The position numbers were made by a program, and so were the translations under genes. A stretch of DNA of 34,874 bases from a virus. The notes under the pieces were generated by a model, which searched no databases, was not told the origin of the DNA, and saw only the letters and a list, made by a program, of their open reading frames with translations. The stretch's first letter is position 1, and each line of letters begins with the position of its first letter. The stretch is from the IMG/VR virus record IMGVR_UViG_3300010354_000278, positions 1 to 34,874 of that record; one strand, written 5' to 3'. This document shows positions 3,194 through 3,640 of the stretch, piece by piece.

Positions 3194-3334
3194 CTAGGCC
3201 CTTCTGATGGCCTCTCCCATCGCTTTAATAGTGGCATTGGTTTTTTCCTGTGCTAATTTCCAGCGCAAGTACGGAAATTTTCCGATCTTTTGCTGTTTTT
3301 TGAGTTGTTTTTGAATGAGGACGAGTGCGGACAT
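3194..3334 (-). CDS. Small helical basic protein, 46 aa
   Basis: Starts MSALVLIQKQLKKQQKIGKF and ends with a helix KTNATIKAMGEAIRRA. It lies between the riboswitch-controlled gene (stop at 3368) and the terminator at 3090-3120, so it would be the second gene of that unit. An overlapping frame (3237 leftward, MPLLKRWERPSEG...) is also open and basic but would read through the terminator. Which frame is used is uncertain. Confidence 0.4.
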   Translation of the reverse strand: MSALVLIQKQLKKQQKIGKFPYLRWKLAQEKTNATIKAMGEAIRRA

Positions 3335-3367: not shown

Positions 3368-3523
3368 TTAGGACTGCTGGCTGGTCTGTACCGGCCGATA
3401 GTCTAGTCCGCGATACTTGAGGTGCTTGGAAGCATCGTGGTGGATTTTGTTCCACCATTGCTCGTACTCTTTCTTTGGCACGTCGGTGTCATAGTTCACA
3501 CCGCGATATGTCGCAATCGACAT
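3368..3523 (-). CDS. Riboswitch-linked 51-aa protein with YRGVxY motif (DUF4278-like)
   Basis: Reads MSIATYRGVNYDTDVPKKEY, then a Trp/His-rich middle (EQWWNKIHHDASKHL) and a second copy of the motif (KYRGLDYRP). The repeated YRGxxY is characteristic of short cyanobacterial and cyanophage proteins (DUF4278-like). Small peptides are known downstream of glutamine riboswitches (the downstream-peptide class), and this gene has exactly that context: it begins 29 bp after the tandem leader, with a strong AAGGAGA Shine-Dalgarno. Function is unknown; a small regulator of host nitrogen or carbon metabolism is an inference. Confidence 0.7.
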   Translation of the reverse strand: MSIATYRGVNYDTDVPKKEYEQWWNKIHHDASKHLKYRGLDYRPVQTSQQS

Positions 3524-3552
3524 AATAGAATCTCCTTAACGAGGGTTAAAGA

Positions 3553-3640
3553 GCGTTCCTTCAGTCGGCGTTTGCGTCTCTGCTGAGATGAACGACTACG
3601 TTCCGCGTCGGCTTACTTCCGTCCCTGATGGGATGAACGT
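3553..3640 (-). ncRNA. Tandem glutamine riboswitch-like (glnA RNA) leader
   Basis: Two copies lie head to tail on the minus strand, 3598-3640 and then 3553-3594. Each has CGTTCATC at the 5' side and GGAACG closing the outer stem, an inner stem, a conserved GACG(G/C)AA segment and GCCGAC. The inner stem covaries between copies: CCC/GGG in the first, CTC/GAG in the second. Copy 1 carries GGACGGAAGTAAG, close to the glnA core GGACGGAAGTAGG; copy 2 is degenerate there (AGACGCAAACG). A small TTAAC-CCTC-GTTAA hairpin and the Shine-Dalgarno of the 51-residue gene follow. Tandem glnA RNAs are known from cyanobacteria. Confidence 0.75.

Follow-up and report, generated by a model that had tools for sequence, protein, structure and literature searches.

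The window analyzed here is a stretch of 34,874 nucleotides (nt) of viral DNA, covering positions 1 to 34,874 of the IMG/VR record IMGVR_UViG_3300010354_000278. On its minus strand, two RNA copies of the glnA type (glutamine-I riboswitch, Rfam RF01739) stand head to tail at 3639-3553, 5' of an open reading frame (ORF) for a 51-amino-acid (aa) protein resembling DUF4278. A preliminary description of the sequence had reported such tandem copies before a 51-aa YRG protein, and they were located where it placed them. The ORF matched DUF4278 (PF14105) with 24.5 bits (E = 3.6e-5), under the Pfam gathering score of 25.3, and also matched phrog_5049. In a cmscan search of 311 nt at a permissive threshold, copy 1 matched RF01739 at 3641-3597 with 25.9 bits (E = 0.0013) and copy 2 at 3596-3550 with 31.9 bits (E = 2.7e-5). 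The gathering scores are 35 bits for RF01739 and 33 bits for RF01704, the glutamine-II (Downstream-peptide) family, and the whole window gave no Rfam match at gathering. The match to RF01704 falls on copy 2 with 14.0 bits, which speaks against membership in glutamine-II. An Infernal check against both families, as the preliminary description had proposed, thus finds RF01739 in each copy and leaves every match under gathering. A covariance model (R1) built from 46 elements, the window's own among them, matched the window once, as a single 87-nt unit with 83.6 bits. The earlier view that the phage carries a structured glnA-type RNA is upheld.

A relaxed search of viral contigs and phage records yielded at least 267 unique composite elements of this kind, the window included. 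The sources were pattern scans of viral contigs, which contributed elements among the matches listed, and the regions of nine named phages, seven of which fall in the set. In total, 297 anchors with a 3' half were kept, and 35 anchors without a recognized 3' half were left out before counting. Among 30 listed left-out anchors, four have a variant core (GACGCAC) and L137, L155, and L203 look like true tandems; some left-out anchors are truncated at contig ends. Because two scans favor certain forms and the counts are lower bounds, class frequencies in this set are not abundances. The search patterns required AAGTA, the inner P1 helix, and AAGGAACG, so these letters are not independent evidence; the long-range bases and the letters of helices P3 and P2 were left free. 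A scan of host genome contigs returned at least 118 stretches (L343-L460), nearly all noncyanobacterial by title and chance-like, which were removed from all counts. By blastn (E ≤ 1e-3), the window element matched 220 of 50,697 phage records, named Synechococcus (172), Cyanophage (27), Prochlorococcus (14), or Marine (7), and therefore is not a chance sequence.

The first half of the window element reads CGTTCATC-CCATCAGG-GACGGAAGTA-AGCCGACG-C-GGAACG-TAGT, and the second half reads CGTTCATC-TCAGCAGA-GACGCAAA-CGCCGACT-GAAGGAACG-C. With glutamine-I RNAs it shares P1 (CGUUC/GAACG), P2, the GACGG-AAGUA core, P3, the GAAGG strand, and the long-range pair, to which we assigned the fifth base of GACGN and the base following GAACG. 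In the glutamine-II crystal, the long-range pair C19:G41 is described as ending the binding helix, with an equivalent in glutamine-I (PMC6698751). When the pair was drawn between the two copies, the outer pair (copy 1 base with copy 2 base), which presumably seals the glutamine pocket and joins the 5' half of copy 1 to the 3' half of copy 2, was C-G in 205 elements and G-C in 62, that is, Watson-Crick in 267 of 267. In the window this pair is G3619-C3553, and the same column pair was Watson-Crick in 46 of 46 aligned elements. The inner pair was Watson-Crick in 257 of 267 elements, with G-C instead of C-G in three. P3 also joins the copies: the letters that follow AAGTA in copy 1 can pair with those that precede GAAGG in copy 2, for example AGTCG/CGACT, AGTCA/TGACT, AATCG/CGATT, CGCCGACT/AGCCGACG, AGCCGACA/TGCCGACT, GGACGG/CCGCCC, and AAACGAC/GTTGTTT. 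Across 46 nonredundant compact elements, 8 of the 10 pairs in the swapped model (P3 and two long-range pairs) changed on both sides, and P3 alone showed double-sided change in 6 of 8 pairs. The swapped model gave 48 double-change cells against 16.1 after shuffling, a value reached in 0 of 500 shuffles, and sliding by 1 to 3 columns abolished the inter-copy signal. The own-copy model gave double change in 2 of 12 pairs (1.6 shuffled) and 3 cells (2.3 shuffled).

The distribution of core letters follows the same division. In the 46 aligned elements, GAAGGAACG never occurs in copy 1 and AAGTA never in copy 2, absences that the search pattern did not demand; in the full set of 267, L339 is the sole element with GAAGGAACG in copy 1 and is probably a true tandem that was misassigned. 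P3 and loop E come together in one three-way junction only when the copies are combined (AGTA from copy 1 and GAA from copy 2), and in neither copy alone; the letters of copy 1 are those that we take to form the AGTA half of loop E. This motif is present in the glutamine-I riboswitch (PMC6698751). The pairing scheme of swapped halves is thus supported by comparative evidence. In the proposed structure, a canonical glutamine-I aptamer would be built from the 5' half of copy 1 (CGTTC, P2, and GACGGAAGTA) and the 3' half of copy 2 (GAAGGAACGC), with P3 taking one strand from each copy. A second, circularly permuted module would be nested in P3 and would consist of GGAACG from copy 1 with CGTTC, P2', and GACGCAA from copy 2; its P1 would be closed by a loop of 3 nt in most relatives and of 4 nt in the window. 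We infer glutamine binding at the outer site, which keeps the conserved letters; the inner site, whose long-range pair is mismatched in the window, perhaps binds glutamine as well. With fold and riboswitch role taken together, the window element is probably a glutamine-riboswitch variant with strand-swapped halves, and our confidence is lower for the number of ligands and the direction of the switch. The coordinates are given in Table 1. The preliminary description had considered the core of copy 2 to be lost; we reject this because most elements share that core: in copy 2 of 260 of 267 elements, C stands at the fifth base of GACGN (one of the source scans required this C).

Table 1. Parts of the composite element and the adjacent gene in the window
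Feature	Position	Strand	Remark
Outer P1, 5' strand CGTTC (copy 1)	3635..3639	minus	Invariant in 46/46 aligned elements
P2 of copy 1, TCCC-ATCA-GGGA	3622..3633	minus	The same loop holds ORF A in many relatives
Core 1, GACGGAAGTA	3614..3623	minus	Third-strand G, long-range base G3619, AGTA half of the presumed loop-E motif
P3, 5' strand AGCCGACG (copy 1)	3606..3613	minus	Partner is 3563-3570 of copy 2
Inner P1 strand GAACG (copy 1)	3599..3603	minus	
Linker TAGT, closing the inner P1 hairpin	3595..3598	minus	T3598 where most relatives carry G
Inner P1 strand CGTTC (copy 2)	3590..3594	minus	
P2' of copy 2, TCTC-AGCA-GAGA	3577..3588	minus	The same loop holds ORF B in many relatives
Core 2, GACGCAA	3572..3578	minus	Usual inner-type core
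P3, 3' strand CGCCGACT (copy 2)	3563..3570	minus	
GAAG and outer P1, 3' strand GAACG (copy 2)	3554..3562	minus	
C pairing with G3619 (outer long-range pair)	3553	minus	Also first base of the Shine-Dalgarno hairpin
Shine-Dalgarno hairpin, CTCTTTAAC-CCTC-GTTAAGGAG	3532..3553	minus	Putative expression platform of the window type
51-aa DUF4278-like ORF with YRG motif	3368..3523	minus	Downstream gene

Two P3 positions are usually A.C or C.A, being nonstandard in 31 of 46 and 22 of 30 elements. Mismatches of this type at every third position recur in relatives, and in some of them standard pairs take their place. If protonated A.C pairs are present, they would make P3 pH-sensitive (3606-3613 with 3563-3570 in the window).

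The most surprising result is that relatives enclose ORFs in the P2 loops. The distance from the 5' CGTTCA to core 1 was bimodal, at 15 to 29 nt or 180 to 230 nt (131 elements). An ORF was present in 118 of 119 long outer loops (ORF A) and 130 of 131 long inner loops (ORF B), the two long loops without one belonging to L467 and L494. By loop length (outer/inner), 87 elements were compact/compact, 73 long/long, 51 compact/long, and 46 long/compact, with 10 unresolved; at least one enclosed ORF was found in 169 of the 257 resolved elements. A scan blind to P2 gave 80 elements, of which 35 were compact/long, 21 compact/compact, 11 long/long, 10 long/compact, and 3 unresolved/long. ORF A has 59 to 70 aa, except for two doubtful cases of 30 aa, and ORF B has 49 to 67 aa. 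Start codons lie 9 to 12 nt past the C of CGTTC in 114 of 118 cases for ORF A and 126 of 130 for ORF B. The stop codon of ORF A begins 4 nt before ACGNAAGTA in 74 of 118 elements and lies within the core (GGA CGC AAG TAA) in 23. ORF B runs in frame through core 2 (GAC GCA AAC GAC TGA) and stops past its start in 121 of 130 elements, and its last residues are DAND in 66 of 130 and AKAD in 37. In most cases, the last codons of ORF B are thus aptamer core, so that coding sequence and the proposed ligand-binding fold would share letters. Changes at codon positions 1, 2, and 3 numbered 4782, 2900, and 10151 for ORF A and 1858, 726, and 3116 for ORF B (same-length pairs, which are non-independent), a pattern as for coding sequence. 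Among five enclosed ORFs tested, four matched PHROG families of unknown function (phrog_6471 for two, phrog_13397, and phrog_504), and none matched Pfam; a tblastn search of one ORF A against phages returned only two records. In Prochlorococcus phage P-SSM4, the two enclosed ORFs are the annotated genes PSSM4_169.2 and 169.3.

The strands that would form P2 across these ORFs are complementary. For outer long loops (102 unique), the duplex energy of the two strands was -10.03, compared with a shuffled mean of -6.57, and for inner long loops (125 unique) it was -10.24, compared with -6.39; neither value was reached in 2000 shuffles. In the 73 elements with two long loops, own strands gave -9.71 and -9.82, whereas cross pairing gave -5.99 and -5.17. 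When the outer long-loop stem was permuted in one fixed register without gaps, the signal was weak, with 126 of 5000 shuffles reaching the value, because the strands are alike between relatives and the register varies; the duplex-energy test took its place. An ORF-sized gap occurred in only 1 of 76 single canonical aptamers of the same loci (those cut by contig ends were left out), and ORF nesting therefore goes with the composite element. Among the named phages, P-SSM4, MED4-213, and S-CAM3 are long/long, P-RSM6 is compact/long, and S-PM2, S-CAM7, and S-CREM1 are compact, as is ACG-2014f by its R1 match. P-SSM2, whose variant core escaped the search pattern, looks compact/long by eye. The compact P2 loop of one relative (L062), CCTATGACTAAAGTACTATAGG, retains what appear to be the first codons of an ORF A, ATGACTAAAG, which would fit the deletion of an enclosed ORF.

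The region between the element and the downstream gene differs between the two types of outer long-range pair. In the C-G type, free minimum free energy (MFE) folds paired the Shine-Dalgarno region to the outer 3' strand in 147 of the 175 elements with a recognized Shine-Dalgarno site (40/49, 30/38, 24/27, and 53/61). A CTTNNNGAG site was present in 111 of the 205 C-G-type elements, and the three bases before AAGG tracked its spelling: CTA occurred with TAG in 30 and ACA in 1; CTG with TAG in 40, CAG in 36, ACA in 2, and AAG in 1; and CCA with ACA in 1. The other 94 are spelled differently (e.g., CCG with TTTGGAG) and were left out of this count. The pairing implies that the site would be released when glutamine builds the outer aptamer, and thus these predicted folds suggest that the C-G-type relatives are glutamine ON switches. 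Forcing the aptamer changed the accessibility of the Shine-Dalgarno sequence little: it became more open in 10 and less open in 3 of 49 C-G-type elements, and more open in 3 and less open in 3 of 34 G-C-type elements. Host glutamine riboswitches are reported as ON switches (PMC6316151, PMC6698751). The G-C type, to which the window belongs, has a CTCTT...AAGGAG arrangement directly after P1 in 48 of 62 elements, the window included, and the small Shine-Dalgarno hairpin that the preliminary description had placed after the leader is indeed there. A loose test for the downstream gene ([YF][RK]G within the visible first part of the ORF that follows) was passed by 251 of 267 elements, with 9 too short and 7 of another kind.

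Upstream, none of 119 elements has GGAG, AGGA, or GAGG in the 22 nt before ORF A, and a TATAAT-like box lies 7 to 8 nt upstream of CGTTC in 154 of the 253 elements with enough upstream sequence. These two observations suggest that the transcript may begin at the edge of the aptamer. The box often sits inside an inverted repeat (GGGTATAATACCC, GGTCTATAATGACC) within the 22 nt that precede the 5' CGTTC, for example in L004, L030, and L573. An inverted repeat with a longest arm of at least 5 was found there in 178 of 255 elements, compared with 31 after one shuffle each, and a regulator site over the -10 box is possible. No such palindrome was seen by eye in the window.

The proposed switch would work as follows. 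Without glutamine, the outer 3' strand would leave the aptamer and, in most C-G-type relatives, pair with the Shine-Dalgarno sequence of the downstream gene. With glutamine, this strand would be drawn into the outer aptamer and the downstream gene freed (ON), while the enclosed ORFs would be shut (OFF) as P2 and the inner P1 form over their start regions. We lean, with somewhat better than even confidence, toward a cyanophage operon with genes inside the aptamer, that is, a polycistronic mRNA with two strand-swapped pockets whose P2 loops are whole genes and in which glutamine toggles between viral proteins; the window would be an ORF-free form from a different lineage. That the window follows the same switching logic is a guess, and its Shine-Dalgarno hairpin is predicted closed in every state tested. 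The earlier description of a phage leader that precedes a small YRG/DUF4278-like protein holds, but the system is larger than a single peptide, since relatives carry one or two ORFs inside the aptamer loops.

The swapped fold might also be right with only one glutamine site, the outer one, and the inner module might serve as a scaffold or control translation of ORF B; we regard this as quite possible, though it is not the version that we prefer. The inner module lacks the loop-E letters, and in the window T3598 makes the inner long-range pair a C.T mismatch. Moreover, GGAG in the inner P1 loop tracks the long inner loop, occurring in 73 of 131 elements with one and 2 of 136 without. Split by P3 length, the counts were 70 of 75 and 2 of 55 in the short-P3 group and 3 of 56 and 0 of 81 in the long-P3 group, and lineage thus explains part of the association. 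Against a single site, the inner P1 is as invariant as the outer (it was required by the search pattern), and the exchange of G-C for C-G in three inner pairs preserves pairing.

Several observations weigh against the swapped fold or its switching role. CGTTC/GAACG of P1 and the conserved core letters, all present in the window, are invariant in 46 of 46 elements (several were search-pattern letters), so that P1 offers no covariation, and the relatives share ancestry, so that shuffle counts are not probabilities. The window itself has two A.C-type mismatches in P3 and is of the compact form without an enclosed ORF. Only three contiguous pairs stand beside the core in 46 of 119 outer long loops, versus 3 of 131 inner ones. 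In sequences cut exactly at P1, MFE folding formed the outer P1 in 83 of 85 compact elements, with the nested energy lower in 85 of 85, and in 73 of 73 elements of a second set, but P3 in only 14 of 85 compact elements. When 60 nt of downstream sequence was added (n = 250), free MFE folds contained the outer P1 in 4, the own-copy P1 of copy 1 in 33, that of copy 2 in 1, and the inner P1 in 172. The folds of the cut sequences are at least partly an end effect and were withdrawn as support for the outer P1; by ligand-free secondary-structure energies, the outer aptamer is not the predicted ground state. Among 58 G-C-type elements, the Shine-Dalgarno sequence paired with the outer 3' strand in 0 and elsewhere downstream in 55, and in the window it remained paired both with and without a forced aptamer. 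Over all types, the duplex of the outer 3' strand with the Shine-Dalgarno sequence gained little from its true sequence (-5.75 vs -5.27, 0 of 2000 shuffles). Finally, single copies of two named phages pass Rfam cutoffs: copy 1 of P-SSM2 alone scores 35.1 bits with RF01739, and copy 1 of P-RSM6 is called glutamine-II with 33.1 bits.

Alternatively, no fold would span the enclosed ORFs, which would be small genes with CGTTCATC as their leader that happen to lie between the pieces; we consider this unlikely. In double-long RNAs folded with downstream sequence (n = 70), free MFE gave the outer P1 in none; with the P2 strands shuffled, the inner P1 fell from 47 to 26 and the own-copy P1 of copy 1 from 18 to 3, and the outer P1 stood at 0 and 1 of 70. 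However, the strands flanking the long loops match far beyond shuffles and cross pairing, complementarity in P3 and in the outer long-range pair is kept where a long inner loop intervenes, and single aptamers of the same loci almost never have such a gap.

Two independent tandem glnA aptamers, the preliminary description's reading of two separate copies, are very unlikely; such tandems have been noted for some glnA RNAs, for more digital control. Rfam matches each window copy separately, and pairs with two complete own-P3 aptamers do exist in viral loci (L204 and L215, and by eye the three left-out tandems mentioned above). However, the own-copy long-range pairs were formed in only 26 of 46 (56.5%) and 25 of 46 (54.3%) elements, leaving 20 and 21 unpaired and showing no excess of double change, compared with 46 of 46 and 43 of 46 for the swapped pairs, and P3 is inter-copy, with GAAGGAACG all but confined to copy 2. 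The independent tandem was rejected on the own-copy pair counts. Least probable of all is a glutamine-II (pseudoknot) aptamer formed by copy 1 alone, with copy 2 reduced to a degenerate remnant: although copy 1 of P-RSM6 is just over the RF01704 cutoff and a 4-bp CGAC/GTCG stem could enclose GGAACG in the window by inspection, the low RF01704 score of the window falls on copy 2, no such stem was seen in the other common S1/linker types (by inspection, with no scripted count), and the conserved copy 2 and the inter-copy covariation would be left unexplained.

Existing annotations fit the strand-swapped arrangement in part. RF01739 exceeds its gathering score in two of the nine named phage regions, that of P-SSM2 and that of ACG-2014f, where one 92-nt match of 41.1 bits covers the stretch in which R1 sees the whole double element; in the record of S-CREM1, a single annotated feature, 'riboswitch, glnA', spans 99 nt. 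These two lengths agree with an outer aptamer that carries an insert in P3. The anchor pattern occurred in 2 of 299 genomes of the order of Cyanobium, and 6 others matched the reversed-pattern control only. One of the two is a Cyanobium locus (L418), a chance match on inspection and the only host-scan locus inspected; the other (G198, locus L580) has a full element with an R1 score of 73.2 bits. That element lies at 1460-1546 on the minus strand with an ORF A upstream and neighboring ORFs that look phage-like by eye, and the sequence is probably a phage contig or prophage. A clear host copy of the composite element was not found in these 299 genomes with the exact inner P1 anchor, which would therefore miss diverged host copies. 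RF01739 itself was found in 17 of 61 of these order genomes at E ≤ 0.001, 6 of them over the cutoff.

The window encodes a portal protein (phrog_145), a terminase (phrog_38), a primase, a sigma factor, and a ribonucleotide reductase with a class II insertion domain; no tRNA genes were found in it. Its terminase is 73.6 to 75.1% identical to those of S-CBS2 and S-CRES1-3 and 40.9% identical to that of PSS2. Of the nine named relatives, MED4-213 is listed under Eurybiavirus and the other eight under Kyanoviridae. The whole records of S-CBS2 and S-CRES1 gave no R1 match better than E = 0.83; since these phages lie outside Kyanoviridae and are without the element, the comparison suggests that it was acquired by transfer.

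Riboswitch aptamers are usually viewed as compact noncoding leaders. Group I introns carry protein genes in peripheral loops of a folded RNA; in contrast, neither a ribozyme nor splicing is involved in the composite element, where the ORFs sit in a putative ligand aptamer and their ends would be part of its helix and core. Compared with single glutamine-I aptamers, P3 and the long-range pair lie between two copies, a permuted module sits in P3, ORFs occupy P2 in many relatives, and the window stays under the Rfam cutoff. Tandem glnA RNAs, described as such in PMC2864571, likewise have two copies before one gene, but here each unit would need the other. Glutamine-II shares its C:G long-range pair with the C-G-type relatives and with the inner module; its crystal strands reassociated pairwise, and it works as two RNA pieces (PMC6698751). 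The element in the window shows no clear pseudoknot stem beyond the possible CGAC/GTCG stem, and its strand exchange would take place within one natural RNA. If so, the element would be a natural strand-exchanged aptamer, with the crystal reassociation and the two-piece construct as precedents (PMC6698751). Cyanophages are reported to carry glnA RNAs (PMC9964418, PMC9602691), and marine phages of other kinds are reported to have glutamine riboswitches (PMC9004378); elsewhere, short upstream ORFs have been described inside predicted RNA structures (PMC8632094). In the literature searched, with supplements outside its scope, we found no description of an inter-copy aptamer fold or of aptamer-enclosed ORFs. 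The comparative evidence points to an aptamer made from halves of two repeats and wrapped around whole genes in many marine phages. The swapped fold, if true, would account for seemingly degenerate tandem glnA motifs in cyanophage genomes. DUF4278 is a domain of IF17, the host glutamine synthetase inactivating factor, and glutamine-I RNAs in cyanobacteria also precede DUF4278 genes (PMC6316151); the choice of phage proteins would then be linked to the nitrogen state of the host via DUF4278-related proteins.

Two further features of the loci were observed. The glutamine element has a manA RNA (RF01745) no more than a few hundred nt away in L571 (2959-3144, 188.0 bits) and L574 (1019-1204, 184.1 bits), loci that belong to phages P-RSM6 and P-SSM4. 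In the window, the DUF4278-like ORF is followed on the minus strand by a basic 46-aa ORF at 3194-3334 (MSALVLIQKQLKKQQ...), which by eye resembles a peptide directly 3' of the element in L146, L173, and L177 (MALILIKQKMLK...).
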